Positions 4,087 to 44,213 of a DNA stretch of 49,605 nt are shown here, in pieces. The stretch is from NCBI GenBank assembly GCA_016873775.1, contig VGWC01000011.1, forward strand, positions 1 to 49,605, given 5' to 3'. Position numbers and translations under genes: made by a program. How positions within the stretch are numbered: position 1 is the first letter of the stretch; every line of letters starts with the position of its first letter. Source of the stretch: Ignavibacteria bacterium. Lineage in GTDB: Bacteria; Bacteroidota; Ignavibacteria; UBA10030; F1-140-MAGs086. Below the pieces are notes generated by a model, which worked only from the letters and a program-made list of their open reading frames with translations, did not search any database and was not told the origin of the DNA.

Positions 4087-6102
4087 ATGGCACTAATAGA
4101 TTCAAAAACAGGAAACATTATCAGAGAATATTCAATTGATGAACTGAAAGAAAACGCACGATTTATGCGAGGATATAATCTTGTTGCACTTCATGCGGCT
4201 GGTTCAGGACATTCCGGCGGAACGCTTTCGATAATGGATATTACTGCGGCGTTGTATTTGCGAATAGCAAATGCAGACCCTAACAATGCTTTGTGGGAAG
4301 AAAGAGATAGAATAATTTGGTCAACTGGACACAAAGCACCGAGTTTGTATTTAGGTCTTGCGTTTGCCGGTTATTATCCGAGGGAAGATGTAATGCTCCT
4401 CCGCAAACTCTATTCGCCATTTCAAGGACATCCACATTGGTTAAAAGTTGCTGGAGTAGAGGCGTCAACCGGTTCATTGGGACAAGGACTAAGTATAGCA
4501 GTGGGAATTGCATTAGCAGGAAAATTGAATGGGAAAAATTATAAAACGTTTTGTATTATGGGAGATGGAGAGCAACAGGAAGGACAAATTTGGGAAGCAG
4601 TAATGGAAGCATCGCATTATCAACTCGATAATCTAATCGGAATCGTTGATTGTAATCGTTTGCAAATAGATGGTCTTGTAAAAGATGTAATGAATGTTGA
4701 ACCGCTCGAAGAAAAATATAAAAGTTTTGGATGGAACGTTCTTCGCATTGACGGACACGATATGCAACGAATTGTTGACGGATTTGAAAAAGCAAAAAAA
4801 AATACCGACGGGAAACCTTTGGTAATACTTTGTGATACGATTAAAGGAAAAGGAGTAAGTTTTATGGAAGATGTTGCGGGGTGGCACGGAAAATCTCCGA
4901 GTTATGAAGAAATGATAAAAGGGCTTACTGAACTTGGTTTAAATGAAAAACTTCCCGTCAATGATTTGTTGGAAAAATCAAAAACATATCAAAAAGATGT
5001 CGAAAAAAAACTGGAAGCAAAACATCCGAAGTTCGGAAAAAATTATTGGTGGAATTCTGAAGCAACAATGAAAGTGAAAATGGAGCCAACACGAAAAGGT
5101 TTCGGAAATTCACTTGCGGAAAACGGCGATGATGAGAGAATTGTTTGCTTAGGACTTGATATTTCCGGCTCCATCACTATAAGCGATTTTTATACTTCAA
5201 AACCGGAACGAAAGAAACGATGGCTCAGTATGGGAATTGCAGAACAATCAGCAACAGCTGCAGCCGCCGGTTTAGCAAAAGAAGGAAAAATTCCTGTTCT
5301 CGGAACATACGGAACGTTTGCCGCCGCAAGAAATCTTGACCAAATTCGCACGTCGGTTTGCTATGGAAATTTTGATGTGTTAATTGCCGGCGCGCACGGA
5401 GGAGTTTCCGTTGGTCCTGATGGAGCAACACATCAAGCGTTGGAAGATTTATTTGCAATGTGTGGTTTACCGAATATGTCTGTAATAGTTCCGTGCGATG
5501 CTATTGAAACGAAAAAAGGAACGACATATTTTCTCTTGAAACATTTTGGTCCGGAATACATACGATTTGCCCGCGAAGCAACTCCGGTTGTAACAAAAGA
5601 AAATACTCCATTTGTGTTTGGCAAAGCGAATATCATTCGGTTGAGGAAGGAAGCCGATAATTTTGTTGACGCATTCGAAACAATTCTTGCTTCAGAATAT
5701 AAAAACGAATTAGAGCATCTTACGATTATCGCTAGTGGACCAATGGTACCGGAAGCAATGCGCGCTGCGTATATTTTGAAAAAAGAGTTTGAATGGGAAA
5801 CAAGAATTATCAATATGCACACGTTGAAACCAATTGATGAATCTGTTATTGTTCAATCGGCAAAAGAAACCGGAATCATTATAACTGCCGAAGAACATCA
5901 AATTGGCGCTCTTGCGTGGCGAGTCAGTGAAATAATAACTTCAAGCAAAGAACTTTATGGTTTACCGATTATTACGGGAGCGATAGGAGTAAAAGACCGT
6001 TTTGGTGATTCCGGTGCGCCGTGGGAATTAGTAAAGGAATTTGAAGTGAGCGCGGAATATATTGCAGCAAAAGCAATTGAATTGATGAAAGTCAAGAAAT
6101 GA
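4087..6102 (+). CDS. tkt: Transketolase
   Basis: This is a full-length, single-chain transketolase of 671 residues. The N-terminal thiamine-diphosphate domain carries GSGHSGGTLSIMD, GSLGQGLSIAVGIALAGK and the ThDP/metal motif beginning GDGEQQEGQIWEA (Gly159-Asp160-Gly161) with the downstream Asn in IVDCNRLQIDG. The middle PYR domain shows GLDISGS, MGIAEQSATAAAAGLA and GAHGGVSVGPDGATHQALED. The C-terminal domain runs from about residue 545 to the end. It transfers two-carbon ketol units between sugar phosphates in the non-oxidative pentose phosphate pathway. The ATG at 4087 has no Shine-Dalgarno, only an A-rich leader. The gene stands alone between two terminators. Confidence 0.96.
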   Translation: MALIDSKTGNIIREYSIDELKENARFMRGYNLVALHAAGSGHSGGTLSIMDITAALYLRIANADPNNALWEERDRIIWSTGHKAPSLYLGLAFAGYYPREDVMLLRKLYSPFQGHPHWLKVAGVEASTGSLGQGLSIAVGIALAGKLNGKNYKTFCIMGDGEQQEGQIWEAVMEASHYQLDNLIGIVDCNRLQIDGLVKDVMNVEPLEEKYKSFGWNVLRIDGHDMQRIVDGFEKAKKNTDGKPLVILCDTIKGKGVSFMEDVAGWHGKSPSYEEMIKGLTELGLNEKLPVNDLLEKSKTYQKDVEKKLEAKHPKFGKNYWWNSEATMKVKMEPTRKGFGNSLAENGDDERIVCLGLDISGSITISDFYTSKPERKKRWLSMGIAEQSATAAAAGLAKEGKIPVLGTYGTFAAARNLDQIRTSVCYGNFDVLIAGAHGGVSVGPDGATHQALEDLFAMCGLPNMSVIVPCDAIETKKGTTYFLLKHFGPEYIRFAREATPVVTKENTPFVFGKANIIRLRKEADNFVDAFETILASEYKNELEHLTIIASGPMVPEAMRAAYILKKEFEWETRIINMHTLKPIDESVIVQSAKETGIIITAEEHQIGALAWRVSEIITSSKELYGLPIITGAIGVKDRFGDSGAPWELVKEFEVSAEYIAAKAIELMKVKK

Positions 6103-22354: not shown

Positions 22355-22397
22355 GGCTTTCATTACTGACAATTTCTTTTTATTGCCCACTGTTTTT

Positions 22398-22429
22398 CTT
22401 GCACAAAAAATAAGAGAGATGTATATTTG
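22398..22429 (+). promoter_or_regulatory. Bacteroidetes-type promoter of the giant surface-protein gene
   Basis: CTTG (22398-22401), a 20-base spacer and TATATTTG (22422-22429) match the Bacteroidetes -33/-7 consensus, with a perfect TAnnTTTG and one mismatch in TTTG. The predicted start is near 22436, leaving a leader of about 65 bases before the ATG at 22503. Confidence 0.5.
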
Positions 22430-22502
22430 CCGCGACTGTTGACAATTTTTTAATGAGGATTTTCTGTATTTCTCTTTGAGTTTTTATAACTTCAGCCATT
22501 TT

Positions 22503-25500
22503 ATGATACAATCTCGTGCACTACGAATTCTAAATCGTTTTTTTCTACTCTGTACATTATTTGTTGCTCTCGCATTTTATTCTTATCCCACGTTCGCACA
22601 GATAAAGAATGCGATAGATTCTGGCGATTGGAATAACCCTTCAATATGGAGTGGTAATGCAGTTCCTACAATAAATGATACTGTTGTTATCAGTGGTACA
22701 GATGAAAGTCCGATTACCGTCAATATTGAACAAACCAATGCATTGTGCGCATCATTATCAATTTTACTGACAGAAGGTTCTTCGCAAAATTCGAGTGTTT
22801 TGAAAATTACAACAAACAGAACACTAACAGTATCAGGGAATATTATCGTAGATGGCGAACTTCAATGCACGGGTTCTGAAGTTATCAATATCAGCGGAAA
22901 TTGGATAATGAGCGGAGATTTTATTCAAGGAAGCAGTACTGTACGTTTTTTTGGCGCACTGAATCAAACAATTGGTGGAGGTCCAACATTTTATAACTTT
23001 GTTGTTAATAAAACTGGAGGAATTCTATTGTTATCTGAATTGCATTGTTCAGTGAAAGGCAATTGGATTGATTCTGCAGGAATTGTGGATTTGGGAGAAT
23101 ACTTGATGAGTACGCCAAATGCTGTTGGAAATTTTGTTTTAGCAGGCAATACGAAATTACGTATCGGCGGTTCGAATCCGTTTCCTTCTGGATATGCTAA
23201 TTATTATTTGTCTTTAACAAGTATTGTAGAATATTACGGAAACGGCGCACAAACAATAAACAACGTTGGATACGGTAATTTACTTTTTTCCGGTGTTGGG
23301 AAGAAAAATGGAGAACAATCTTTAACTATCAATAAAGACTTAACCATTAGCGAGGGTGCAACATTTGATGGTAAGTCGCAAAAAACGCATCGTATTGCAG
23401 GAAATTGGTTGAACAACGGAACATACCTTACTGCTGCTGGAAATACCGTCGAATTTTTTGGTACTGATACGCAAAGAATTTTTGGTGCTGCGGAAACACA
23501 GTTCAGAAATTTACGTATTAGCAAACCAAGTGGTAGCGTACTGAAATTAGATACAAATGTTAAGATTGTCAGTAAACTTCAAGTCTATAGCGGCATTTTA
23601 GATTTATTCAATTTCACTGCGAACAGAACTACTGCCGGTATTCCTTTAACCGATTCGTTGACTGTGTTGGGGACTTCGCAATTACTTATAGGAGGTGAAA
23701 ATAATTTTCCTGTCAATTTTCCTAACGTTTATTTTTCTCCGACTTCTACTTGCAGATATTATGCAAATGGTAATCAATCAATCTCTTCGCAACATTATAA
23801 TCATCTTGAATTAAGTGGAGGTGGTATTAAGACCGGAAGCGGAAATATTGGTGTTGGAGGAAATTTCACTGTTGATGAAAATATACATTATGCAGATGGT
23901 GGTTTTACGGATTCATTGGGTGGAAATGTTTTCGTAGGTGCAAATGGTTCATTTTTAGCGACAGGAATTACAAAATTTAACGGAACAACGATACTCAACG
24001 GCAACGGAAATTTTACGTTTTATTCAGTTGAGATTTCTAATTTTATCAACGATAACGGGAAACAGTTTTTTGTAAATGGAAACTGGATAAACACAGGAAC
24101 ATACTCGGCGTTTGGAACTGCGGTATTTAGTGGAACTGGCAATCAAGAAATCAAAAGTAGTAATTTTTATAATATAGAATTCAATAATATTGGAAACAAA
24201 GTAATTAACGGCGCACTGCAAATATCAGGAAACTGGATAAATAACGGAGCCACGCTTACGCTTACGAACAATGTAACTTTCAATGGAATCGGAAATCAAA
24301 GCCTTACGAGTAGTGGAACAGTGTTGAAATCGTTAACTGTGAATAAAAACAATGGAACGCTTTTTTTAATGGATAATATAATTCTTGATAGCGCTCTTTT
24401 CGTTCAAATAGGAATAATGAACGACAACGGCAATCAAATTATAATCAAAGGAAATTTTGCCAATGATGGTACGTTTCAAGGTAATGACGTAATAATTTTT
24501 GACGGCAACACAGTTCTTTCCGGGAATGGAAATACAAAATTTACAAACGTAATCATTAGCAATTTACTTACTCATGACGACGTAACATTTTCCGTTTCAG
24601 GAAATTGGAATAATGCGGGAGTGTATCTTCCAAGTAGTGGAACAGTTATATTCAACGGAAACGAAGCAGGCGTACAAACAATAAGTGCTTCAATATTCTC
24701 CAACATTATTTTTTCAAATTCAACTCCTAAAAATATAACTGGTGAACTTGTCATCAACGGCGATGTATCTTTCAATAATGATGTTACTGTTACATTAGGA
24801 AATTTTTCGCATACGGTTAATGGAAATTGGACGACAAGTCCAAACGCAACGTTGAATGCACAAGGTTCGGTACTTCGTTTTAATGGAACAGATAATCAAT
24901 TTATTAACGGAGGAACATTTGATATCTTGCTTTTCTTAAATAGCGGCGTAAAAACAATTACAGGAAATATTTTCGTAGAAGATAGTATTGCGATTATTGA
25001 TGGCGCGGAAGTGAACGGCGGAAATGCAATAATAACGATTGCTGGAAATTTTCTAAACAATGGATTTTTTTCTTCTGCTACAAGTACGCTTTCATTCAAT
25101 AAAAACGGAACATCGTATCTTTTAGGCGACACGAATACTTATGCGTACAATATCTTCGTTGCAAACGGAACGACAGTTGAAGTAAAGAGTGGAAATATTT
25201 TGTTTCTTGAAGGAACGCTCACAGAGAACGGTTATATATTAGGAACGCTTGAAACCGAACAAAATCTCAGTTCAGCAAACACGTTGTATTCGTTTGGTGG
25301 AATTGGCGCCAAAATTTTATTCAATGGAAATACATTGGGATTAACAACGGTTCAAAGAATCAGCGGAATTATTCCTGATGGTTTTGATGGACAAGTTGTA
25401 AAAAGAAAATTTATTGTTGCTCCAACAAATGTTGGTCCGTTTGATGCACAACTTACATTACAATATCATCAGTCGGAAATCAACGAACAAACGGAGGAAA

Positions 25501-28500
25501 AAATTAAATTATGGCGCGCAGAATTAAATAGTTCTGTTTGGGAATTAAAAGGTTCAAGTTTTAAAATTACTGGTGAGCGTTCTGTTACCGATACCAACGT
25601 AACTCAATTTTCGCAGTGGGCATTTTCTTCCAATCTTATTCGAAGATTTGTAGTTAATAATAGTTCGTGGCACATTGATACTAACTGGAGACCCGTTGGA
25701 ATTCCTACAAGTTCAGATAGCGTGCTTATTCCTCTCGATGCACTTTGTACCATCGAAGAAGATTCAGTAGCGAACGCAGGAATTGTCAATGTACAAGGCA
25801 CATTGACGATGACAAATGTGTGTACGCTTAATGTTGCTGGTAATTTTCGATTAGGTGCTAATGCTTCGTTCAATGTTGGAAATGGTGTAATCAATTTTAA
25901 CGGAACAGAAACACAAGAGATCGATGCATTGAATTTTTACAATCTTTCTTTTGCAAATAGCGGAGAAAAAAAATTTAGCGACGATTTTTCTGTTGCAAAA
26001 AATGTAGTGATAGGCAATGGAGCCGTTATTAATATCGGCGAAAATAATGTTACTGTCGCAGGCGATTGGAAAAATAATAACGGAACATTGTTTGCAACCG
26101 GAAATTCTACCGTTACGTTGAACAATAATACGAATGGAAATCAAACAATTGACGGTGGACAATTCAGAAATCTCGTTTTGGGCGGAAATGGAAACAAAAC
26201 CGCAATTGGTGAAATTACAGTTTTCAGAAATTTTCAAATTGATGCAAATGTAACATTCATCGGTGGGAATAATACTCATCGTATTGGCGGAAATTTTTTG
26301 CAGAACGGAAATTTTGTTTCCGCTAATTCTTCAATATACTTCAACGGTAACACGCTTCAACAAATCACCGCTACGAATTTTCACAATATTCGTTTCGGCG
26401 GCGGAGATACGAAAACTATTTCCAATGCTTTGACCGTTACGGGTAATGTCGAAATAGATTCAGCGACCATGTTTGATGTCGCAAATTTTTCGCTGATTGT
26501 TGGTGGAAATTGGATAACAAACGGAATTGTTCAGAACGCCAATTCGCTTACAATGATTGGCGACGGAACTTCTTTTTCCGGCGCAACTTCCCCTACCATA
26601 AAAAATTTAGAAATTCAGGAAAACGTAACTGCTACGAGTGGAATAACTGTTACTAATTCACTGATTGTTGCAAACCAAAAAAGTTTTACACAAACTTATG
26701 GAACAACGCAATTCTCCGGTTTTATTTCACTTACGGGAAATGCAAATTTGTATTCAGCGAAAATAGTCGGTGGAAGTTCGCTAACACTTCAAACCAATTC
26801 GCTGCTCGGTATTGCAGATTCGTTTATCATACTTGGAAATTTTGATGCAACAACAAATTCGCCAACGTATGTGGAGTTCAATAAAGAAACTGACCAAACG
26901 ATCCCCGCTGGAAGTTACGATAACATTTCATTTCTTAATGGAGGAACGAAAACAGTAAATGGAAACATATCTGTGATGTCTGATTTTTTTATTGACGGAC
27001 AAACAACGTTCACTGACGGCGGAAAAACAATTACCGTGAAGAAGAATATTGATAACAATTATGCGTATGTTGGAAATGGCACGATTCACTTTACTGATAA
27101 TTCTTTGTTTTTGGGAAATGGAACATTTACTTTCACTGACGTTGTTGTAAATGCAAATAAAACGCTCAACGTTGGCGCAAGAGAAATTATCGTATTAGGA
27201 AATTATTCGAATGTTGGCGCGCTTATTTCAGATAGCACCGTAATTTTCAGCGGAAATACTCAGCAAACAATTTTTGCTTCTTCATTTAAGAATGTACTCT
27301 TTGGAGGGAACGGAAAAAAAATTTTACAACGTTCGCTTTCTGTAAAGGGAAATCTTGTTATTGAAGATACACTTGACGCGGCAGATTTTACTGTATCAAT
27401 TGCAGGAAATTGGATGAACAGCGGAACGTTCCTCAGCGGAGATAATTCTGCTGTTGTATTTAACGGTGCGGCGCAAACAATTTCTTCGAGCGATTTTCGG
27501 AATCTTACGCTTTCCGGAAATGGAAAGAAAACGTTAAACGGAAATCTGAATATTGACGGAGAATTTTCATTGAATGGTGTTGAATTTGATGCCAATGGCA
27601 ATACGATTTCTGTTGCCGGAAAATGGACGAACAACGGCACATTCGTTGCTACAAATTCAACAGTGATATTTGATGGAAATGGAAATCAATCCATTGAAGC
27701 AAGTAATTTTGCGCACGTTATTTTTGGCGGTGGTGGTGTTAAAACTTCAAACGGTGTGCTCGCTATTATAGGCGACGTACTTATTAGTTCTACTTTTTCA
27801 GCGGGAAATTTTCTACATACTATAGGCGGAAACTGGACTAACAGCGGTACATTCCATCCAAACATAAGTTCGTTTATCTTTACAAAAAACGGAACCGTAG
27901 AGTTTTCTGGAAATACGGCGTTCAATAATCTTACCGTAAATGCTGGCACAGTAATACATATTGCAGACGAAGATACTATTGAATTGCGAGGAAATATTTC
28001 GGAAAACGGATATGTTCGAGGAATAATTTTAAAACAAGAAAACCTCAATGCAGAAGGTTCATACGTGTTTGGAAATATCGGCGCAACTATTTCATTTACC
28101 GGAAATCTTCCGGGAATAACAACGATTACTCGTATCACAGGAAAATTTCCTCCAGGATTTGATTCTACGGAAGCGTTAAATCGTTATTATTCGATCCAAT
28201 CAGCATTTGCACCAACAGTTGCTTCAATAACATTAAAATATAATGAAGCCAATGAGTTTAATGTTGCATATCAAAAAGAAAGTCAGTTAACGTTATGGAA
28301 AGGAAATGCAAACGGAACATCGTGGTTCAATCAAACGCAAAGTATTGTAACAACGGTGAATAATTCCGTTCAGTTGAATAATGTTACGGAATTTTCTTTG
28401 TGGGCGATTTCATCAACGCGATTGAAGAGATTTGTTGCAACGAATGATACGTGGAATAATCCTGCAAACTGGTCGCCGCGCTCACTTCCAACGTCTATTG

Positions 28501-31500
28501 ACAGTGTATTTATTCCGTTAGGAACGAAAGCGACAATTGATGAAAACGCAGTTGCAATTGCCAAAGGAATGTATATTCAGGGAACGCTTTCGGGAAATAT
28601 GAGTTCTTCATTAGAAATTTTCGGTGAATGGCAAAAGAGCGGAACATTTACAGCAAACGGAACAACAGTAGAATTTCTTGGCGGCAATCAACGTATTTCT
28701 GCTTCCAATTTTGGTAATGTGGAATTTTCGGGAAATGGGATAAAAGTGTTTGCCGCATCCGTTTCCGTTGAAGGAAATATATTGATTGATACGAACGTTA
28801 CACTTTCTGCTGGAACGTTTTCGCATACGGTCGGTGGAAATTGGAACGACAATGGAATGTTGGATGCAGGAACATCAAAATTTGTTTTTACAAAAAACGG
28901 GAACGGAATAATTTCCGGAAAAACATATTTCTTCGACGTAGATATTTCAAATCAAAGTACAATGACCGTAAGTGCAGGAGATACCATTACAATCAGAGGT
29001 TTGTTGAATGAAATCGGGAGTGGCTATCTTCTTGGTAATGTACGTTCGATAAAAAAATTGAATGACCCGTTGACCTTTTACAATTTCAGTAATCTTGGCG
29101 CTACGATTAATTTCACTGGTCCAATTTCTCCGGAAACTACAATTGTAACACGAACAACGGGAACTGTTCCAACCGGATTTGCAGTGAATCAGGCGATTAC
29201 AAGATATTTCCATATTACGTCGCAATTTGCGCCTGTTTCGGCATCACTATCGTTTAAGTATAACGTTGTGCGCGATTTGCAAGGATTAGAAGAATCGCGA
29301 TTAAAATTGTGGAAGAGCACTAATGACGGAAATGAATGGTTTATTGAACAAAGTTCAGTAGATACGCAAGCGCATACTGTCGAAATTCTTGTTGCCGGAA
29401 GTTTTTCTTCGTGGGCAATTTCACCATCACAAGTACGTGTTGCAGGAAATGCTCAAACACAATGGGATAATTCTGTAGATTGGTTGCCAACCGGAATTCC
29501 CAATGTTTCTGACAGTGTTTTCATACCGACAAATTATGAAGTTACCATTCCGCAAACATATACTGCGCAATGCAGAAGCATTTATATTGCCGGAATGCTT
29601 ACAATGTCGGATGGAGCGTTGTCAATTTCAAGAAATTGGAAAAAAGAAACAACAGCAATATTTAATGCTGGAAACGGAACAGTTCTTTTTATCCGTAATG
29701 ATGGCGGAGTTCAAAATATCAGCGCAAGTAATTTTGCCAACGTTGCTTTTAAAAATAACGGAACAAAAAATATCCAAGGCAATATTGTTACAAGCGGCAG
29801 TATTTCCATTGACGAGAACGTTTTTGTTGACGCTTTTGATTATTCTGCAACCGTTGGAAAACATTGGCTCAATAATAACGGAGTTTTTTCTTCAACTGGA
29901 AACGTGTATTTCAACAGCGCAGATTCGCAAGCGATACGGTACGGAACATTTCGTGATGTGTACTTTATGGGAAACGGAATAAAAAAGTTGTTTAGCACCA
30001 ATATATTTCGGAACGTAGAAATTGATACAAATGTAACAGTAGACGGAGGAACTTCGACCGATTCTGTAAAAGGCAATTGGGTAAATAACGGAACGTTTAT
30101 TTCCAAAGGTTCTGTTGTTTTTGTTAGCAGCGAAGAACAACATCTTTCACAAAGTAATTTCAATAATATTATTTTTGTTGGGACGGGGAAAAAAATAGCC
30201 AACGGAGTTTTAACAATATCCGGGAACGTAACGTTCATTCAAGGTTCAACGTTTGCCGCAGGAAATTATACTCACACGGTGAGTGGAAGTTGGTTTAAGT
30301 TGGGCAATGCTGAATTTCAATCTGATGAGTCAACAATTGAATTTAATGCGGCAAGCGGAACGTCGCAACTTATCAGTAAAGGCAATTTCTATAATCTTCG
30401 CTTCTCGAATGAAGGTGGAAAAACTGCGCAAGACGATTTATTCATTGAAGGTAACGTTGAAATTCTTTCCAATTTTAACGGAGGAAATTTTACACATACC
30501 ATTGGTGGCAACTGGACTGATAATGGCTCATTCACTACAAATAATGGAAAAATAATTTTTACCAATTCAGACACGGCGTATTTCAAGGGCAATACAGTTA
30601 TCAATGCATTGCGAATTGAAGCGAATACGACGCTGAAAATAGATAGCGGAAGTTACATAACAATACTCGATACGCTCATTGAAAATGGATATGTGTTCGG
30701 AGAGTTACGTACGACGCAGCGTGTACATTCGTCATCGGATACGTATGTATTTAACGGCATTGGAACAACAATTACCATCCCTACGAATGATGATTCATTA
30801 GGAAATGTTATTGTAAAAAGAATGAGCGGTAAAATTCCGACGAACTTTAAGGATTCGACTGCAATTCTGCGAACGTACGAAATTCAAACAAGCCGAAGTA
30901 CTTTTTCTGCAAACATTGAAATGACATTCAATCGTGAAATAGAATTGAATTACCAGAAGAACGCTCACTTAAAAATTTGGTCAAGCAGTGATAATGGAGA
31001 AATATGGAAACGCCTTCCCGAAAGCACGTTTGATAGTGTAACGAATATATTTTCCCTCAACAATTTTGATTCCGATTCTCTCATTACATTTGCGTTTTCT
31101 TCGTTGATAGGAAGGAGTCCTGTTGTCCTGAACGGTTTGTGGGATAATCCCGATGTTTGGAAGCCGGGAGGAGTTCCTACATCAGCAGATTCGATTTATA
31201 TTCCTTCGGCAACGACGCTCATAATTCCGAATGGATATTCTGCTTCCGTTGGAACAATGAATATTGCTGGTACACTTACACACAATGGAGGCGACAGTGC
31301 AATTCACGTTTTTGGTAACTGGAGGAATTCTGGAATTTTTAATTCGGGAACAGGAATAGTGGTGTTTGAAGGTGCGAATCAACAAATTGGAAAATCGGAG
31401 TTTTACAACGTGAAGCTGAAAGGAAGCGGAGTGAAATCAGCAGTAGATTCACTGACGTTTGAGAATCTATCAATAAACGGCGTAACGTTTAACGATAATG

Positions 31501-34500
31501 GAAATCAAATACGTATCAACGGCAATATTGATATTGCTTCGGATTTCACTGCATCGGGAACGACGATTTTTGACGGAACAACAGTACTATCCGGGTCCGG
31601 CGATTACAATTTCAACAATGTTATCATTAATGGCTCATTAGATGATGGTGGAATCGGATTGAATGTTGCTGGAAATTGGAGAAACAACGGAACGTTTATT
31701 TCGAGCGGCAACGCTGTTTTAAAAGGAGCAACGAATCAACAAATCTCATCTGGAAATTTTTATAATCTGGAAATAGATAAACCGAGTGGAACTGTTCTGC
31801 AAAACGGAAATATTTTCATAGAGAATGATTTTGTGTTGTACAGCGGGAAATTTACAACACAAGGGAACAATCTGAATATTGGCGGTTCGTTTACGTTGCA
31901 TGATGATTCGCTGTTTGCAAATAACAGCACCATTAGAGTTGGTGGCGATTGGAATCGTAGCGGCGCATTTATTCAAGGAACTTCAACAATTGCGTTTAAC
32001 GGAACACAAACGCAAAACATTCTTGATTCGACTATGTTCCATCATCTTGTTGTCAATGGAACAAACAATAACATTCTTGCAAAAGAAAACATCACGGTTG
32101 ACGGTAATTTTACTGTTGCTTCCGGCAATTTTAACGATGATGGCAACATCGTTTCGTTGAAAGGTAATTTGCATGTGGATTCTAAATATTTTGGTTTTGG
32201 AACAATTCAATTTTTGGATTCGACATTTCTTTCCGGCAACGGACTAATTATTTTCAATAATGTAGAAATAGTAAATTATTTCAACGATGGCGGATTAACC
32301 TTTTCCGTGAAAGAACATTGGAATAAACATTCGTTTGCACAATTTGTTGCAACTGGAACTGTTTCGTTTAACGGAAGTAATTCTCAACAAATTTCTACTT
32401 CCCCTTTTCATCATATCGAATTTGCAAACAACGGTGTGAAAACAATTTCCGGTCAACTGAATGTATCTGGTAATATAGATTTTGTTGATTCCTCGTTGGT
32501 GAAATTGAATACGGTGCTGTATGTTGCTGGAAATTGGACGATAGATTCAACAGCATCATTTACTGCGATGCGTTCGACGGTAATTTTTAATGGAACAGAT
32601 ACGCAGCACATTAGCGAAAGTAATTTTTACAACGTACAGTTTGAGAACAGTGGAACAAAAATTGCTAATGGCAATTTCTTGATTGAAGGAAATTTCAAGA
32701 ATCAAAATCCGGCACCGTTTGTTGCAGGAAATTATACTCATACGCTTGATAGTAATTTTATCAACACTGGTACATTTATACCGGGTACCAGCACAATTAT
32801 TTTCAACAACGACGGCGATGCGTGGGTGCAAGGAATTTCTTCGCCGTTTTACAACATTGTCATCAATGAACAAACAACATTGCGCACGTCGAATAGTTTG
32901 AAAATCATTTTGTTACATTCACTCACGGAAAACATAGCGACGACGGGAGGCAATTTGTTTGGAAGAATTGAAAAAACGGAATCTGTTACGTTACCGGAAT
33001 CAACATATTCCTTTGGTAACATCGGAGCAGAAATGAAATACAGTGGAAATTCTCCGGGAGTAACGACCATAGAACGTATTTCTGGAGAATATGTTCGCGG
33101 GTTCGATAGCAATGCGGTTATTAATAGAGCGTACTTTCTTTCTGCCGAAGATTCTTCGATAAATGGTTCGTTAAAATTGTTCTACAATGTTCGTGAAGTC
33201 AACGGACAAGACGAAAATACGTTGTATTTGTGGAAATCGTTGGACAGTGGAAAACAATGGATAAAAATTGATTCGAGTAAAAAAACATATTTGGAACAAT
33301 CTGTTACAACGATGGGAGTAGATACATTTCAATACCTAACGTTTTCACCGTTTGTTAGTCGTATTGCAAGTGGATCGGGAGAGCTGTTTTGGAACAATCC
33401 GAAGAACTGGAGACCTGAAGGAATTCCAACCAAGAGCGATAGTGTGTTTATTCCTTTGGGAAAAGTAGTTACTATCGATTCTAATTCATCCAAAGCAGAA
33501 TGCGGAAATATTACGATTGATGGGCAAATCGGTTTTAACGGAAATTATTCATTGAACGTTTGGGGGAATTGGAAAAAGAACAATACTTTTTCTTTTCCTA
33601 ATGGAACAATAGTGTTTGCAGGAAAAAATCAATTTTTGAACGCAACGCAATTTAATAATGTTGTATTCGGTGGAAGTGGAATAAAAACTGCAAGAGGAGA
33701 AATAACAGTAACAAAGATTTTAGAAATTAAAAACGGCGTTTCATTTGTTGATAGCGGATATCAAGTAACTGTATCGAATAATGTCCATGTTGATGGTGAA
33801 TATCTTGGAAGCGGAATCTTATCGCTTGAAGGTAATACGACGTTGCTTGGCAATGGAACGTTTCGTTTTGGTACAGTAAAAATAAATTCAAGCGCAGTGT
33901 TAAATGATAACTGGAAAACTATTTTTGTATCAAAAAATTGGGAAAAAAATAACGGAGGAATATTTAATTCGAACGGTATTGTAACGTTTACAGGAATTGA
34001 TACACAAACTATTTCTGCAAGTAATTTCTACACTATTCATTTTAGCGGAATTGGTCGCTGTGGTTTGAGTGGAAATATTTTTGTCAATGGAAATGTGGCC
34101 ATCGGAAACGGAGCGCAAATTTTTCCTCAATCGTTTGGAGTTCGCGTGATGGGAACGTGGGAAAATAACGGTGATTACAATAGATTTGCAGCAGGTTCGG
34201 ATACTTTAAATGGAAACATTTCGGGAAATTCTGAAACAAAATTTAATAATCTCATCATAACCGACACTGTTTTTACTGCGTCAAGTTTTCAAATACAAAA
34301 ACGACTTGAAATAGAAAACAATGGAATGATTCAGCAAACCAATGGCGTGGTAACGTTCATTGGTTCCGATACATATATTCGAGGGAAAATGCAATTAAAC
34401 AATATTATCATTCCTCAACAGCATTCATTGAAAATTGAACCTGCTTCATATCTTCGCATATCGGGAAGTATTAATGGGAACGATTTGAACAACGTTATTA

Positions 34501-37475
34501 TTACAGCAGATACCTCATCAGTAATCGAATTTAATGGTTCTGGGGCGCAAACAATTCCTGCAATTGTTTATGGTGAACTTCGTTTGTCCAATACGGGAAA
34601 TAAAACTGCTTATGGTCCCGATAGAACACTCAAAATTTTGCGAGAACTCCATATTGATACACTTACAACGTTTAAGGATAACCGCGATTTAATCGTGCTT
34701 GAGGGTTCCATTATTAATAAAGGAAATTACGTTGCCTCCGGTACGTTAAGAGTAGATAACAATCAAAGTATATCAACGCTGTTTGGAACAGGTTCGTATC
34801 AGTTTAATCATATCATTATTCTTGACGACAATACACTATCTACTGAAAGTTTATATGTTGCAGTAAAAGGTAATTTACAAAACACCGGAATACTGAAAAC
34901 ATTCGGCACATTTGATTTTAACGGTGTTGATGTTTCGCAAGAAATTGAATCAAGCAATTTCTATAGCGTTCTAATCAGTGGTTCCGGTGTGAAAACAATT
35001 ACAGGAAAACTTACCATTGAAAAAGATTTAGTGATTACAACAAATGCGGAACTGGAACTGGGTTCTTCACGCCATACATTAAAAGGAAATCTCATCGTGA
35101 ATGGAACGCTCAACCCGCAAACGAGTAAAATATTATTTCAGGGAGATTCATTGCAGACGATTACCGGTTCAACAACAGTGCCATTTCATAAACTTCAATT
35201 GTTTAACGAAAATAACGTATCGTTGCATGCGCATATTATAGTAAAGGATTCATTAAGAATTGCCATGGGAAAACTTATCACCAATGCGTATTCTGTTTTG
35301 CTAGATACTTCAGCGAAATTGTATGAAATTTCCGGAAACGAAATTTTTGGAAAAGTTATTGCAGACAGAACATTACGATTGAATGAAAATAATACATTCA
35401 ATGATATAGGATTGGAAATTACTTCTTTTGCTCAGAATTCCATACGAACGAAAGTAGAACGAATAACCGGAACACAATTAAACGGTGTTGGAGATTCAAC
35501 GTTTGAAAACCATCATTCTATCGCGCGTTATTTTGACGTAGCATTTCAAACATCTACGAATTTTCGGGGAAATATTTTACTTCATTATAATCATGCAAAT
35601 GATACTATTGGACAAGAAGAAAATTCATTTCGGCTATGGACTTCTACTAACAACGGAGATTCTTGGTTCGGTTATACGAAAGAAAGCAGAACAAATCCGG
35701 TTTTTGGCGATAGTGTTATTGCCGACAGTGTAAATGTTATCGTTCCTTCTATGCGGTTTACTCTTGCTGATACGAATAATGCATTGCAAGGAAATAAAGT
35801 GCAGATTGTTTCTTATCGAGTAACTGATACGAATTTCGTGAATATGCTCAATCCGAATTTACAAAATTGGACATTTGAAATTCGTAAAGGAACAATCGGA
35901 GGGGAGTTGATAGGAGAAGTTCTGGCAAACGATTCGCTCACGATAAACAATATCAAAGATGGAAGATACTATGTTATTCAAAAAGATAGCATTCATTGGA
36001 AACACGTTGGTTATCGAGTGAGCGGCTATCAAATTGATGATACGATAGATAGCAGATTGAATAATATTTCGTTTGAAATTTATGGCGGAACTACATCAGA
36101 GATTTCGATATATAATTTTCACAAAAATATACTTACCGTTCGAACATTTCTTGACGAAGATAAATTGCTTTCAACGACTAATGACCAGCTTCCAATCGCG
36201 TGGAGATATATTCTTTATAAAGATGATATACGCCACAGTGATACGATTGCGGGCGTTTGGAATCTTGATAGATTAGTTGACGGAACGTACACAATAGAGA
36301 ATCACGATAGCACTGGATGGACACCGCTTGGATTCGCCTTGAATGGCATCATTAGCGTGGATACTTCAAGAAAAGTTACATTAAACATCAACAGCGGAAC
36401 CATAGATACGATAGATTTTATCAATTTTCCAACGCAAGAACGCTATATATCGTTTACACAGGAAAAATGGAAAATTATTCCTAAGAAACTTGCACGACAA
36501 TCCAATATTCCTGTTGCTATGCAACAAAAACCAACAATAGGAAACATTGCCGATAGCGCATACGCAAAAGTGTATGCAAAACAAAAAGACGGATTGCTGC
36601 TTGGAATTTCATTATCCAAAAACAGATTGAAAGAAGATACGCTTGCGTTCATCCAAATCGTTAACAAGGCGGAATATGTGCGTTCGTTCATTGGTCATAC
36701 GGGAACATCAAGAGGATATGAAAAGATGCAAGGTGTATATCGCAATCCCAAACGTATTTCGCTCTATAATAATAAACTTGCCGGAGAACTGTTAACACTG
36801 AAAATGAACATTGCAATGAGTGATGCTCGCATTGCATACCCGCACCTTGGAGAAATATATTATTATCCAACAGATACAACGAGTATTTTATACAAAAAAA
36901 CGTTAAGACAACTTGCGCGTACTGTTGACACTATGTTGACGTTCTGGAAATTCCATTCCGTCGGAAATAGTTCTGACATTACGTTTTATTCAGCATTATG
37001 TTCTTCGCTCGTTGAAATTAATCATGCATTTGATGTACCTGAATCTCAAGTTGAATTTGATACGGCAAACGGTGTATATTCACCCTTAAAAATAACGTCG
37101 AAAGGAAAACTGTTATATCGGGTTCCATTTCTGCGTCAAGATGTTACAAAAACAGATACCGTTGCAGAATCAACGTATGCAAATCCTACGACGTATAGAT
37201 TATTGCAAAATTATCCGAATCCATTTAATGTTACGACAACAATTCAATACGAACTTCCGTATGAAGCGCGCGTATCAATAAGTGTTTATAACATTCTCGG
37301 ACAACGAGTAGCAACACTATTTCAAGATGAATTGAGGTCTGCAGGTCCAGATGAAGTAATCTTCGATGCGTCGCATTTTTCCAGTGGGGTATATTTTTAT
37401 CGAATGTCAGCAAAAGCAACGGAAAATTATACAGGAGAATTTATTGAAGTGAAGCGTTTCGTATTGCTTAAATAA
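22503..37475 (+). CDS. Giant modular surface protein (about 4,990 residues) with T9SS sorting domain
   Basis: This is a single uninterrupted frame of 14,973 bases. The ATG at 22503 (MIQSRALRILNRFF) gives a signal peptide ending near PTFAQ; an in-frame TTG at 22476 would place nine residues in front. Residues about 35-4,430 consist of six modules. Each opens with a header of the type WNNPxxWxxxGxPTxxDSVxI, continues with a variable number of beta-rich units of about 70-80 residues (GNWxNNGTF, STVxFNGxxxQxI, SNFYNxxFxxxGxKT), and closes with a footer (ENGYxxGxL, YxFGxIGA, TTIxRxSG, RYFxI, WAxSS). Residues about 4,440-4,890 are a distinct C-terminal region with prealbumin-like strands. The last approximately 95 residues, starting LLQNYPNPFNVTTTIQYEL, are a type A T9SS sorting domain. 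No enzyme motif is visible. It is probably an adhesin, matrix or sheath protein at the cell surface. Confidence 0.93.
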   Translation: MIQSRALRILNRFFLLCTLFVALAFYSYPTFAQIKNAIDSGDWNNPSIWSGNAVPTINDTVVISGTDESPITVNIEQTNALCASLSILLTEGSSQNSSVLKITTNRTLTVSGNIIVDGELQCTGSEVINISGNWIMSGDFIQGSSTVRFFGALNQTIGGGPTFYNFVVNKTGGILLLSELHCSVKGNWIDSAGIVDLGEYLMSTPNAVGNFVLAGNTKLRIGGSNPFPSGYANYYLSLTSIVEYYGNGAQTINNVGYGNLLFSGVGKKNGEQSLTINKDLTISEGATFDGKSQKTHRIAGNWLNNGTYLTAAGNTVEFFGTDTQRIFGAAETQFRNLRISKPSGSVLKLDTNVKIVSKLQVYSGILDLFNFTANRTTAGIPLTDSLTVLGTSQLLIGGENNFPVNFPNVYFSPTSTCRYYANGNQSISSQHYNHLELSGGGIKTGSGNIGVGGNFTVDENIHYADGGFTDSLGGNVFVGANGSFLATGITKFNGTTILNGNGNFTFYSVEISNFINDNGKQFFVNGNWINTGTYSAFGTAVFSGTGNQEIKSSNFYNIEFNNIGNKVINGALQISGNWINNGATLTLTNNVTFNGIGNQSLTSSGTVLKSLTVNKNNGTLFLMDNIILDSALFVQIGIMNDNGNQIIIKGNFANDGTFQGNDVIIFDGNTVLSGNGNTKFTNVIISNLLTHDDVTFSVSGNWNNAGVYLPSSGTVIFNGNEAGVQTISASIFSNIIFSNSTPKNITGELVINGDVSFNNDVTVTLGNFSHTVNGNWTTSPNATLNAQGSVLRFNGTDNQFINGGTFDILLFLNSGVKTITGNIFVEDSIAIIDGAEVNGGNAIITIAGNFLNNGFFSSATSTLSFNKNGTSYLLGDTNTYAYNIFVANGTTVEVKSGNILFLEGTLTENGYILGTLETEQNLSSANTLYSFGGIGAKILFNGNTLGLTTVQRISGIIPDGFDGQVVKRKFIVAPTNVGPFDAQLTLQYHQSEINEQTEEKIKLWRAELNSSVWELKGSSFKITGERSVTDTNVTQFSQWAFSSNLIRRFVVNNSSWHIDTNWRPVGIPTSSDSVLIPLDALCTIEEDSVANAGIVNVQGTLTMTNVCTLNVAGNFRLGANASFNVGNGVINFNGTETQEIDALNFYNLSFANSGEKKFSDDFSVAKNVVIGNGAVINIGENNVTVAGDWKNNNGTLFATGNSTVTLNNNTNGNQTIDGGQFRNLVLGGNGNKTAIGEITVFRNFQIDANVTFIGGNNTHRIGGNFLQNGNFVSANSSIYFNGNTLQQITATNFHNIRFGGGDTKTISNALTVTGNVEIDSATMFDVANFSLIVGGNWITNGIVQNANSLTMIGDGTSFSGATSPTIKNLEIQENVTATSGITVTNSLIVANQKSFTQTYGTTQFSGFISLTGNANLYSAKIVGGSSLTLQTNSLLGIADSFIILGNFDATTNSPTYVEFNKETDQTIPAGSYDNISFLNGGTKTVNGNISVMSDFFIDGQTTFTDGGKTITVKKNIDNNYAYVGNGTIHFTDNSLFLGNGTFTFTDVVVNANKTLNVGAREIIVLGNYSNVGALISDSTVIFSGNTQQTIFASSFKNVLFGGNGKKILQRSLSVKGNLVIEDTLDAADFTVSIAGNWMNSGTFLSGDNSAVVFNGAAQTISSSDFRNLTLSGNGKKTLNGNLNIDGEFSLNGVEFDANGNTISVAGKWTNNGTFVATNSTVIFDGNGNQSIEASNFAHVIFGGGGVKTSNGVLAIIGDVLISSTFSAGNFLHTIGGNWTNSGTFHPNISSFIFTKNGTVEFSGNTAFNNLTVNAGTVIHIADEDTIELRGNISENGYVRGIILKQENLNAEGSYVFGNIGATISFTGNLPGITTITRITGKFPPGFDSTEALNRYYSIQSAFAPTVASITLKYNEANEFNVAYQKESQLTLWKGNANGTSWFNQTQSIVTTVNNSVQLNNVTEFSLWAISSTRLKRFVATNDTWNNPANWSPRSLPTSIDSVFIPLGTKATIDENAVAIAKGMYIQGTLSGNMSSSLEIFGEWQKSGTFTANGTTVEFLGGNQRISASNFGNVEFSGNGIKVFAASVSVEGNILIDTNVTLSAGTFSHTVGGNWNDNGMLDAGTSKFVFTKNGNGIISGKTYFFDVDISNQSTMTVSAGDTITIRGLLNEIGSGYLLGNVRSIKKLNDPLTFYNFSNLGATINFTGPISPETTIVTRTTGTVPTGFAVNQAITRYFHITSQFAPVSASLSFKYNVVRDLQGLEESRLKLWKSTNDGNEWFIEQSSVDTQAHTVEILVAGSFSSWAISPSQVRVAGNAQTQWDNSVDWLPTGIPNVSDSVFIPTNYEVTIPQTYTAQCRSIYIAGMLTMSDGALSISRNWKKETTAIFNAGNGTVLFIRNDGGVQNISASNFANVAFKNNGTKNIQGNIVTSGSISIDENVFVDAFDYSATVGKHWLNNNGVFSSTGNVYFNSADSQAIRYGTFRDVYFMGNGIKKLFSTNIFRNVEIDTNVTVDGGTSTDSVKGNWVNNGTFISKGSVVFVSSEEQHLSQSNFNNIIFVGTGKKIANGVLTISGNVTFIQGSTFAAGNYTHTVSGSWFKLGNAEFQSDESTIEFNAASGTSQLISKGNFYNLRFSNEGGKTAQDDLFIEGNVEILSNFNGGNFTHTIGGNWTDNGSFTTNNGKIIFTNSDTAYFKGNTVINALRIEANTTLKIDSGSYITILDTLIENGYVFGELRTTQRVHSSSDTYVFNGIGTTITIPTNDDSLGNVIVKRMSGKIPTNFKDSTAILRTYEIQTSRSTFSANIEMTFNREIELNYQKNAHLKIWSSSDNGEIWKRLPESTFDSVTNIFSLNNFDSDSLITFAFSSLIGRSPVVLNGLWDNPDVWKPGGVPTSADSIYIPSATTLIIPNGYSASVGTMNIAGTLTHNGGDSAIHVFGNWRNSGIFNSGTGIVVFEGANQQIGKSEFYNVKLKGSGVKSAVDSLTFENLSINGVTFNDNGNQIRINGNIDIASDFTASGTTIFDGTTVLSGSGDYNFNNVIINGSLDDGGIGLNVAGNWRNNGTFISSGNAVLKGATNQQISSGNFYNLEIDKPSGTVLQNGNIFIENDFVLYSGKFTTQGNNLNIGGSFTLHDDSLFANNSTIRVGGDWNRSGAFIQGTSTIAFNGTQTQNILDSTMFHHLVVNGTNNNILAKENITVDGNFTVASGNFNDDGNIVSLKGNLHVDSKYFGFGTIQFLDSTFLSGNGLIIFNNVEIVNYFNDGGLTFSVKEHWNKHSFAQFVATGTVSFNGSNSQQISTSPFHHIEFANNGVKTISGQLNVSGNIDFVDSSLVKLNTVLYVAGNWTIDSTASFTAMRSTVIFNGTDTQHISESNFYNVQFENSGTKIANGNFLIEGNFKNQNPAPFVAGNYTHTLDSNFINTGTFIPGTSTIIFNNDGDAWVQGISSPFYNIVINEQTTLRTSNSLKIILLHSLTENIATTGGNLFGRIEKTESVTLPESTYSFGNIGAEMKYSGNSPGVTTIERISGEYVRGFDSNAVINRAYFLSAEDSSINGSLKLFYNVREVNGQDENTLYLWKSLDSGKQWIKIDSSKKTYLEQSVTTMGVDTFQYLTFSPFVSRIASGSGELFWNNPKNWRPEGIPTKSDSVFIPLGKVVTIDSNSSKAECGNITIDGQIGFNGNYSLNVWGNWKKNNTFSFPNGTIVFAGKNQFLNATQFNNVVFGGSGIKTARGEITVTKILEIKNGVSFVDSGYQVTVSNNVHVDGEYLGSGILSLEGNTTLLGNGTFRFGTVKINSSAVLNDNWKTIFVSKNWEKNNGGIFNSNGIVTFTGIDTQTISASNFYTIHFSGIGRCGLSGNIFVNGNVAIGNGAQIFPQSFGVRVMGTWENNGDYNRFAAGSDTLNGNISGNSETKFNNLIITDTVFTASSFQIQKRLEIENNGMIQQTNGVVTFIGSDTYIRGKMQLNNIIIPQQHSLKIEPASYLRISGSINGNDLNNVIITADTSSVIEFNGSGAQTIPAIVYGELRLSNTGNKTAYGPDRTLKILRELHIDTLTTFKDNRDLIVLEGSIINKGNYVASGTLRVDNNQSISTLFGTGSYQFNHIIILDDNTLSTESLYVAVKGNLQNTGILKTFGTFDFNGVDVSQEIESSNFYSVLISGSGVKTITGKLTIEKDLVITTNAELELGSSRHTLKGNLIVNGTLNPQTSKILFQGDSLQTITGSTTVPFHKLQLFNENNVSLHAHIIVKDSLRIAMGKLITNAYSVLLDTSAKLYEISGNEIFGKVIADRTLRLNENNTFNDIGLEITSFAQNSIRTKVERITGTQLNGVGDSTFENHHSIARYFDVAFQTSTNFRGNILLHYNHANDTIGQEENSFRLWTSTNNGDSWFGYTKESRTNPVFGDSVIADSVNVIVPSMRFTLADTNNALQGNKVQIVSYRVTDTNFVNMLNPNLQNWTFEIRKGTIGGELIGEVLANDSLTINNIKDGRYYVIQKDSIHWKHVGYRVSGYQIDDTIDSRLNNISFEIYGGTTSEISIYNFHKNILTVRTFLDEDKLLSTTNDQLPIAWRYILYKDDIRHSDTIAGVWNLDRLVDGTYTIENHDSTGWTPLGFALNGIISVDTSRKVTLNINSGTIDTIDFINFPTQERYISFTQEKWKIIPKKLARQSNIPVAMQQKPTIGNIADSAYAKVYAKQKDGLLLGISLSKNRLKEDTLAFIQIVNKAEYVRSFIGHTGTSRGYEKMQGVYRNPKRISLYNNKLAGELLTLKMNIAMSDARIAYPHLGEIYYYPTDTTSILYKKTLRQLARTVDTMLTFWKFHSVGNSSDITFYSALCSSLVEINHAFDVPESQVEFDTANGVYSPLKITSKGKLLYRVPFLRQDVTKTDTVAESTYANPTTYRLLQNYPNPFNVTTTIQYELPYEARVSISVYNILGQRVATLFQDELRSAGPDEVIFDASHFSSGVYFYRMSAKATENYTGEFIEVKRFVLLK
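22612..35820. repeat. Six header-units-footer modules within the giant gene
   Basis: Module headers begin at about 22615, 25655, 28438, 29452, 31131 and 33372. Examples are WNNPSIWSGNAVPTINDTVV, WNNPANWSPRSLPTSIDSVF and WDNPDVWKPGGVPTSADSIY. Footers begin at about 25195, 27978, 28987, 30658, 32908 and 35325. Module lengths are roughly 3.0, 2.8, 1.0, 1.7, 2.2 and 2.4 kb. The difference lies in how many short units sit between header and footer. The modules are diverged at nucleotide level, so this is old duplication rather than recent slippage. Confidence 0.8.
37191..37472 (+). other. Type A T9SS C-terminal sorting domain of the giant protein
   Basis: The domain runs from TYRLLQNYPNPFNVTTTIQY through VSISVYNILGQRVATLFQDE and SSGVYFYRMSAK to the basic end VKRFVLLK. 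The order of motifs is that of proteins exported by the type IX system and then processed or anchored at the surface. Confidence 0.9.
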
Positions 37476-37563: not shown

Positions 37564-37860
37564 ATGGCAGAACCAACCCCGAGTACCGGGAAATTAACTA
37601 TTCAAGCAGAGATTGAAAAACTTGCAAAATCCTGCGCCTCACTCAAAGACACAACAAACAAAGTCCGTGATAAACTCACTCCCGTGTTGCGTCGCGAACA
37701 AGCAGGAAAAGGTCCCGCTGGTATTTCTACTGAGTTAGCAGCGCAACTTCGTGAAGCAAAACAATCATCACCAATGTTGGAATCACTTCTTCTTCAAGAT
37801 GAAAAAATCTCCGAAGTGCAGAATACATTGAGCGATGTTTTATCTGCTCTCGATTTCTAA
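37564..37860 (+). CDS. Small helical protein of unknown function
   Basis: I do not recognise this 98-residue protein. It has no signal peptide or membrane segment. Apart from a short N-terminal tail (MAEPTPSTGKL) and a Gly/Pro break at about residues 57-60 (GKGPAG), it reads as amphipathic helices: TIQAEIEKLAKSCASLKDTT, DKLTPVLRREQ and EKISEVQNTLSDVLSALDF. This suggests a helical hairpin or coiled-coil oligomer. The ATG is preceded by an aaggatat purine run, one of the better Shine-Dalgarno-like leaders here, and a strong terminator follows, so it may be well expressed on its own. It follows the giant gene by 88 bases with no terminator seen between, so read-through is also possible. Confidence 0.75.
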   Translation: MAEPTPSTGKLTIQAEIEKLAKSCASLKDTTNKVRDKLTPVLRREQAGKGPAGISTELAAQLREAKQSSPMLESLLLQDEKISEVQNTLSDVLSALDF

Positions 37861-37926: not shown

Positions 37927-37958
37927 AAAGGCGATTCTTCCCGAATCGCCTTTTTTTT
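37927..37958 (+). terminator. Strong Rho-independent terminator
   Basis: An 11-bp GC-containing stem, aaaggcgattc (37927-37937) with gaatcgccttt (37943-37953), has loop ttccc and ends in eight Ts. It separates the small helical-protein gene from the convergent Fe-S oxidoreductase gene, and a shorter T-run exists on the opposite strand. Confidence 0.93.
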
Positions 37959-42056: not shown

Positions 42057-44213
42057 GTGAAATATATTTTTCTCACATTATTTTTCTTGCTTGAAAGTTC
42101 GTTTGTTTTTTCCCAAGAACAGGAAGCAGTATTAGGAGGAAAGGGCGAACAATTGCAATTGTACGATAACAGTTGGGCAATACTTGTTGGCATTACTTCG
42201 TACAATGATGCATCCGTTTCGACAAGAAAATTTGCCGTTGAAGATGTTAAAACATTAGCATCGTTATTTTCGAAACTTCAATTTCCTAAGCAGAATATTA
42301 TCATACTTCAAAACGAACAAGCGACGTTATTGAAAATTCGAGAGTCGTTAAATGATTTAGGTAAAAAAATCCGTAGCAATGATAGGTTTTTATTGTATTG
42401 GGCGGGCGCAACGGAAACTGCAACCGAGAAAGGAAAAGAGGTTGGATATTTGATACCGAGCGATGGGAGAAAAAAATTATTACCAACAACGAGTATTTCT
42501 CTGGATGAAATTTGTAGATTGTCAGACAATATCAGCGCGAAGCACATCCTTGTAATCATAGATAATTGTATGAGCGGATTTCCCAATCTCCAAGTAAAGA
42601 TTCCTCCAAAAATTTCTTCGACACCAATCAAAACAATTATTTCTTCGCGGGGATTTCAAGTTATTACTGCGGGAAGAAAGAATGAGCGGCATTATGAGAG
42701 TTCAATATTGAACCAAAGTATTTTTTCAAAAGCAATGAAAAATGCATTTTGGATTGGTTTATTAGATGTCGACAAAAATGGTTTAATTACGGCTGAAGAG
42801 TTGTATAATTATCTTGTTCCATCGGTTTCTGAACTTGCGAAGCAGGAAAATTTTATTGTGCAACATCCTGTGTATGCAACTTCAGCGTTGTTAGATGGTC
42901 AATTTATTTTTCCGCTGAAGGGACTTTATTATTCACTTGTCATAAGAGATTTACCGAAGAAGAATACTGTAAAAGTTAACGGGAAAATTATTTCCGAAAA
43001 TAAGCCGTCTGTGAAAAAAGCATACGAAAGCGGAACGCTTACATTGGAGATTGAATCTCCGGGAAAAAAAACGTTTTCAGAAATAGTAGCATTGAACGGC
43101 GATAAAACTATTGTTCCAAAACTTGATACACTTATTGAGTATTCGCTGGATACAAATCCCATCGGTGCCAATGTGAAAATTGATGATGAAAATGTTGGAA
43201 CAACTCCTTTCATAAAGCGTTTGAGCGTAGGATTGCATCGTATAGAAATTTCTAAAGACGGTTATCTACCGCTTGCATTTGACGTTCACATTTCGTTGGG
43301 GCATACGTTTGATAAAAAAGACCTTGTAAAACATACTGATATTACTCTCACGATTTCCGAGTTACCCGATAGCAGTTCTGTTTTTCTCGACGGAAACGTG
43401 ATTTCAAAAAACAAAGAGTTGCACAAACAGTTGTTGCAGAAAGGAATTTATACTCTTGAAATTCACGCTCCACATTATGATGTATATTCGCAAACAATCA
43501 CGTTGAACGAAGATGAAACTTTGATTCCCGAGATGAAGCGTCTAAGCGAATATCATCTTGAAACTGTTCCGTCGGGAGCAACAGTAATTCTTGATGGGAA
43601 AAAAGTTGGACAAACTCCGTTTCAATCTACGATAATTTCCGGCACGCATACGATTTTACTTACAAAAGATTTGTATGACTCATTGTTTTTTACCACAGTT
43701 GTTTCCGCTGATAATCATTATGATAAAAAATATCTTACCGTAACAACAGCAATAAAAGCGACGACGCAAAAAGATACATCCAATAGAATGAAATATGAAA
43801 ACACGTTCACTGATGCACAAAGAATGCATATACAGGAAGAATTTCGTGGTAGCACACCGATAACGATGCTTGATATTCACGTAAAGCCGCAAACCGCAAA
43901 ATTATTCATAGACGATAGACAATATGAATTGGAAAATGGAAATGCGATTGTCAGCGTTCAGAAAGGAAAACACAGAATTGTAGTATTTAACGCAGGATAT
44001 GAAATTTATGATGGACTTGTAGAAATAGAAGAAGGAAAAATTAAAGAAATAACGATTGTGTTGGAAAGCGCTTCAACGACGATGTGGTGGATTTACGGAG
44101 GCGCATCAGCTGTAATTGCAGGAACAGTAATTTTATTATACAAGAATATCATCGAAGAAAAAGTAGTTCTTGATCCGTATGGAAATCCGCCGCAATTTCC
44201 TCCGCAACCATAA
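42057..44213 (+). CDS. Caspase-fold protein with PEGA-type repeats, expected catalytic His replaced
   Basis: A GTG start at 42057 is chosen because it gives a signal peptide (MKYIFLTLFFLLESSFVFSQ). No ATG precedes the mature region. Residues about 36-285 form a caspase-like (C14) domain: SWAILVGITSYND, a Cys motif IIDNCMSG (C151), and an EF-hand-like DVDKNGLITAEEL (237-249) that is common in this family. Where the His of the GHG motif should be, the sequence is YWAGATE, with Ala118. About five PEGA-like beta units follow (about 290-350, 361-410, 431-487, 498-545, 603-660; for example SGATVILDGKKVGQTPF). A membrane helix (about 681-699) comes next, then a short Pro-rich tail. The protein is probably membrane-anchored with most of its mass outside the cytoplasm. 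Catalysis is doubtful without the His. It sits between the asparaginase and a giant surface-protein gene. Confidence 0.87.
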   Translation: MKYIFLTLFFLLESSFVFSQEQEAVLGGKGEQLQLYDNSWAILVGITSYNDASVSTRKFAVEDVKTLASLFSKLQFPKQNIIILQNEQATLLKIRESLNDLGKKIRSNDRFLLYWAGATETATEKGKEVGYLIPSDGRKKLLPTTSISLDEICRLSDNISAKHILVIIDNCMSGFPNLQVKIPPKISSTPIKTIISSRGFQVITAGRKNERHYESSILNQSIFSKAMKNAFWIGLLDVDKNGLITAEELYNYLVPSVSELAKQENFIVQHPVYATSALLDGQFIFPLKGLYYSLVIRDLPKKNTVKVNGKIISENKPSVKKAYESGTLTLEIESPGKKTFSEIVALNGDKTIVPKLDTLIEYSLDTNPIGANVKIDDENVGTTPFIKRLSVGLHRIEISKDGYLPLAFDVHISLGHTFDKKDLVKHTDITLTISELPDSSSVFLDGNVISKNKELHKQLLQKGIYTLEIHAPHYDVYSQTITLNEDETLIPEMKRLSEYHLETVPSGATVILDGKKVGQTPFQSTIISGTHTILLTKDLYDSLFFTTVVSADNHYDKKYLTVTTAIKATTQKDTSNRMKYENTFTDAQRMHIQEEFRGSTPITMLDIHVKPQTAKLFIDDRQYELENGNAIVSVQKGKHRIVVFNAGYEIYDGLVEIEEGKIKEITIVLESASTTMWWIYGGASAVIAGTVILLYKNIIEEKVVLDPYGNPPQFPPQP

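Follow-up and report, generated by a model that had tools for sequence, protein, structure and literature searches.

A single reading frame of 15 kb lies in the window analysed here (the whole 49,605-nucleotide stretch of DNA from an uncultured Ignavibacteria bacterium) and raises the question of whether so long a gene is real and, if so, what kind of protein it encodes and what this protein might do for the cell. The frame (22503..37475, forward strand) runs from an ATG at 22503 to a stop at 37475, with 4,990 codons, no internal stop and a 540-kDa product, exactly as the original prediction had delimited it. The only alternative, longer start upstream of this ATG is a TTG at 22476. With the base composition of the window, the probability that 4,990 codons are free of stops by chance is about 10^-161. 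The G+C content of the gene is 37.0%, against 37.3% in its surroundings.

A collapsed or artefactual array was the main technical concern. A repeat scan found no tandem DNA repeats within the gene, and its longest interspersed DNA repeats measure about 50 nt at 60-76% identity, which makes collapse or expansion during assembly very unlikely; the protein repeats themselves are only about 25-40% alike. An artefact was also rejected on the existence of a full-length counterpart in a sister species of the same genus, Ignavibacteriales bacterium CROMO_A_84 (G001, contig JAGXRH010000026.1; the genome under study is G000). This counterpart (5,078 residues, G001:C26) aligns end to end with the giant, a single local alignment spanning residues 1-4990 at 42% identity (44% over the globally aligned positions), and it has all the modules described below in place. 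The lengths of cap plus solenoid in the two species are 893/862, 804/845, 211/213, 423/425, 615/625 and 655/674 residues for modules 1 to 6. The UvrC proteins of the same two species are 81% identical, which indicates that the sequence of the giant diverges fast while its length is kept. In a second genus of the same family (G002), the homologue is 5'-truncated and apparently has one module fewer, around module 5. Judged on these comparisons, the gene encodes a real and conserved protein, kept end to end in the sister species, whose export and fixation at the cell surface are predicted.

A perfect TAnnTTTG element upstream of the gene had been pointed out. The element is present, but this motif occurs 54 times in the window against 62 expected, i.e. 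at chance frequency, and it was therefore dropped as stand-alone evidence. What makes it credible is its context: it belongs to a promoter-like block (22394..22445, forward strand) composed of a TTG (22399-22401), a 20-nt spacer and TATATTTG (22422-22429), and this 52-nt block is conserved in front of the counterpart gene in G001, where 43 of the 52 bases are the same (alignment score 68 vs a maximum of 39 among shuffles). The gene that precedes the block differs between the two species (uvrC in G000, another giant gene in G001).

The encoded protein consists, from the N- to the C-terminus, of a putative signal peptide, six modules, two CnaB/SdrD-like domains, a helical domain of about 220 residues and a type A sorting domain. 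The signal peptide (22503..22598, residues 1-32) was recognised by inspection of the sequence and looks typical (RALRILNRFFLLCTLFVALAFYSYPTFA|Q, ending in ...YPTFA|Q), with likely cleavage before Gln33. Each module is built on the same plan: a G8-like cap, 2 to about 12 diverged units of about 70 residues and an Ig-like tail of about 120-150 residues that closes the module. A profile made from the protein's own repeats detects 47 diverged units in the giant and 48 in the G001 protein, spaced mostly by about 70 residues inside the modules. Concerted evolution of the units is unsupported: for 27 of 45 units, the best-matching unit of the G001 protein occupies the equivalent position.

The modules can be delimited as follows. 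Module 1 (22599..25640, residues 33-1046), defined by the repeat profile and of a length kept in G001, contains a cap, solenoid units and an Ig-like tail; its cap gives no match to the G8 profile, though it resembles those of modules 2-6. Module 2 (25641..28424, residues 1047-1974) has a G8-like cap, a solenoid and a tail, and module 3 (28425..29423, residues 1975-2307) a G8-like cap, two units and a tail. Module 4 (29424..31112, residues 2308-2870) was modelled as a parallel beta-solenoid plus a beta tail; it is followed by module 5 (31113..33362, residues 2871-3620), at the level of which the G002 homologue seems to lack one module, and by module 6 (33363..35777, residues 3621-4425), which has the strongest cap match (best stretch 3636-3686). 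The whole protein scores 38.9 bits against G8 (PF10162; cut-off 22.9), while single caps score 16.1-22.7 bits and match mostly the first half of the profile.

AlphaFold2 was applied to residues 2300-3060, with an input alignment made of the other modules and the G001 protein, and gave a model of high confidence (mean pLDDT 90.7, pTM 0.76) in which short strands recur every 19-20 residues with a super-period of 70-71 residues. The predicted fold of a module is thus a parallel beta-solenoid that ends in a beta-rich tail, in agreement with the beta-rich scaffold originally proposed. At E <= 0.001, Foldseek retrieved nothing from the PDB for the module; the best of the weak neighbours, all above this value, are beta-helix surface proteins (phage tailspikes, HxuA and Ag43), and a dextranase and an alginate lyase are also among them. 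About 3,600 residues belong to caps and solenoids and, at 20-24 residues per coil, we estimate a span of about 70-90 nm for the solenoids by themselves, with the Ig-like tails adding to this. Such dimensions would allow a reach beyond the envelope, in line with the earlier suggestion of a molecule perhaps long enough to bridge cells or coat the envelope. As had also been anticipated, no enzyme family was detected in the giant with Pfam or NCBIfam, and no ligand site or specific binding domain was found.

In the model of the C-terminal region (residues 4421-4990, pLDDT 80.7), two Ig-like domains are followed by a largely helical domain, from which a linker of low confidence leads to the sorting domain. 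We assign the Ig-like pair (35778..36428, residues 4426-4642) to the CnaB/SdrD-B type because its Foldseek matches are the B domains of SdrD (1.5e-8) and SpaA-type pilins. The T9SS type A sorting domain (37185..37472, residues ~4895-4990) is recognised by PF18962 (34.8 bits, cut-off 27) and by TIGR04183 (type A, 43.1 bits, cut-off 23), and it is the most conserved part of the giant (71% identity to G001). Of the two export signals in the original prediction, the sorting domain is thus borne out by curated models, and the signal peptide is a plausible candidate as judged by eye.

Between the Ig-like pair and the sorting domain lies an undescribed, mostly helical domain of about 220 residues (36429..37157, residues ~4643-4885), here called the pre-sorting domain, for which no relative was found in Pfam or the PDB. 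When it was searched with a six-row alignment whose query excluded the sorting domain, it was found in 21 named loci, all attributed to Ignavibacteria(e), Ignavibacteriales, Bacteroidetes/Bacteroidota or an uncultured bacterium. In 41 of 44 proteins it precedes the sorting domain's PNPF motif by 11-58 residues; of the three others, two are cut by the end of the locus and one has a variant motif. Among 296 genomes of the phylum it was found in only three, all within the order of the giant, and in the sample of this order the extended match was obtained in families f1-f3 and not in f4-f6. An equivalence with the "long CTD" of Prevotella intermedia was considered and rejected, as those are beta-sandwiches of 69-82 residues (PMC11969387) with no separate helical domain. 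The pre-sorting domain constitutes a concrete new domain family, associated with T9SS cargo within one order of Ignavibacteria. It is also present, together with a T9SS sorting domain, in a 943-residue frame (L044, 1-2833) whose N-terminal part resembles, by eye, a phospholipase D-like nuclease. Other families of the order repeatedly show adjacent pairs of T9SS genes of about 800 codons in which both members encode the pre-sorting domain (L052, L053, L054, L055, L062 and others).

The giant is flanked by uvrC, by a small gene and by a gene for an Fe-S protein. The small gene (37564..37860, forward strand) encodes 98 residues with no signal peptide by inspection and no Pfam match, and directly follows the giant gene at 88, 88 and 89 nt in G000, G001 and G002, respectively. 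It is absent from the other 57 of the 60 genomes of the order that were searched. Its product is 85% identical in G001 and 63% in G002, against 42% for the giant in G001. A hairpin followed by a T-run (GGCGATTC-TTCCC-GAATCGCC-T8, 37930..37958, forward strand), seen by eye and missing from the scan listing, is a likely terminator; its position after the small gene suggests that the two genes are co-transcribed. The clade-restricted pre-sorting domain and this conserved partner gene are the newest pieces of the locus and the parts most worth following. One could imagine, rather speculatively, that the former is a lineage-specific module for T9SS export or anchoring and that the 98-residue protein is a dedicated cytoplasmic helper (e.g. 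a holdback chaperone or a regulator) for the secretion of a 540-kDa cargo; we consider this combined proposal doubtful. Further downstream, the window contains a gene (42057-44213) for a 718-residue protein that combines PEGA repeats with a caspase-like domain of peptidase family C14. It adjoins another long frame, cut by the contig end (44170-49605, at least 1,812 residues), in which a beta-helix region occurs alongside numerous Ig domains of the ASH/HYDIN/Cep192-like kind.

The giant is not isolated in its genome. Paralogues include tandem genes of 3,435 and 2,143 codons on contig C24 (G000:C24:13000-31794) and further frames of about 3,790, 2,861, 1,868, 1,805 (open) and 1,303 residues. The 3,435-residue protein has an end-to-end counterpart of 3,411 residues in G002 (45%), and contigs C35 and C26 of G001 together look like a row of three giant genes (2,143-type, 3,435-type and the 5,078-residue gene) through a putative join. 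Since the giant belongs to this broader set of giant T9SS proteins, the statements that such proteins are rare and that this one has a central role in the lifestyle were overstated: in this genome alone, several relatives measure 1.3-3.8 thousand residues and the sorting domain (Por_Secre_tail) is matched about 100 times, and, in the genomes searched, full modules are restricted to three genomes of the giant's own family.

The genome encodes SprA, PorU and PorV, all above curated cut-offs, with PorU at C3:4295-7621 and a PorV-family gene just downstream (C3:7772-8827). By its sorting domain and this machinery, the giant is classified computationally as a T9SS type A cargo. In Porphyromonas gingivalis, PorU removes type A CTDs and attaches A-LPS (PMC9143113). 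By analogy, we propose that the chain would enter the periplasm by Sec and cross the outer membrane through SprA, that PorV would carry the cargo and that PorU would exchange the sorting domain for a lipopolysaccharide-type anchor. The helical pre-sorting domain might then form a foot at the membrane, with the two CnaB-like domains above it as a short stalk, from which the six capped solenoid modules would point outward with their Ig-like tails as joints. Such a rod may act as an adhesin or a scaffold contacting other cells or a surface, a role suggested by fold and length. We give a probability of roughly 70% to this reading of the giant as a type A cargo forming an LPS-anchored, rigid rod of about 0.1 micrometre with an adhesive or scaffolding function. 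The computation itself establishes that the gene is intact and conserved end to end, that a solenoid is predicted, that the sorting domain is of type A and that the genome encodes SprA, PorU and PorV; export, anchoring, orientation and adhesion are inferred from established knowledge of the T9SS (PMC9143113), and the length of the rod is an estimate.

Type A cargo of the T9SS may be either released or anchored, and the giant could instead be a released protein or part of a surface coat or biofilm matrix. The abundance of sorting-domain proteins and of giant relatives in the genome would fit a shared coat, as would the lack of a specific binding domain in the giant. Against this stand the presence of PorU together with PorV and the finding that, within the genus, the number and the length of the modules are strictly conserved, which suggests that reach matters; we regard release or coat formation as unlikely, though it is the most serious competitor of the anchored rod. 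If its solenoid held an active site, like those of beta-helix lyases and tailspikes, the giant would be a cell-surface enzyme or a sugar-binding protein, and the tailspikes, dextranase and alginate lyase among the fold neighbours recall such an activity; the E-values of all these neighbours, the silence of the enzyme models and the fast divergence of the giant relative to UvrC make this very improbable.

The SprB adhesin of Flavobacterium johnsoniae, a 669-kDa T9SS protein whose sorting domain is of type B and which needs a cognate SprF (PMC9143113), suggests another function, in which the T9SS motor would move the giant along the surface during gliding. Both are giant, repetitive surface proteins encoded by single genes and exported by the T9SS, and both come from the same broader group of phyla; SprA is present in the genome studied here. 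However, the sorting domain of the giant is of type A and does not match the type B model, and no PorP/SprF-like gene flanks the giant; membership of the SprB type was rejected on sorting-domain type and neighbouring genes. The search for GldM gave no match, but its control was equally silent. A gliding adhesin is as improbable as a surface enzyme, and the anchored rod remains our preferred reading.

Other systems resemble this rod in part. Giant1-5 of Apilactobacillus kunkeei are extracellular proteins of 3,000-8,000 residues encoded in tandem clusters of giant genes, for which purifying selection has been reported, and several have a beta-solenoid domain (PMC12863079). They differ in coming from a Gram-positive bacterium and in architecture, a single solenoid at the N-terminus being combined with a long helical rod and an SH3b-like C-terminus, whereas the Ignavibacteria giant combines six solenoid modules with T9SS export. 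As in G8 (PF10162) proteins, modules 2-6 each open with a G8-like cap, after which come beta-helix repeats, but the profile match is partial (mostly the first 40-55 of its 124 positions) and each cap alone is at or below the cut-off. The autotransporter Ag43 and the TpsA protein HxuA, weak fold neighbours of the module, are likewise parallel beta-helix surface rods; they use type V secretion, give no significant fold or sequence match, and the giant has no passenger/translocator architecture.

Finally, giant bacterial genes have been described, in the work of Reva and Tummler as cited in PMC11573180, as strain-specific and of unusual composition. The gene studied here contrasts with this description by its conservation in two species, its ordinary G+C content, its constant module number and length at 42% identity and its small, slowly evolving partner. 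It therefore offers a test case for why the length of a rod stays constant on the cell surface.
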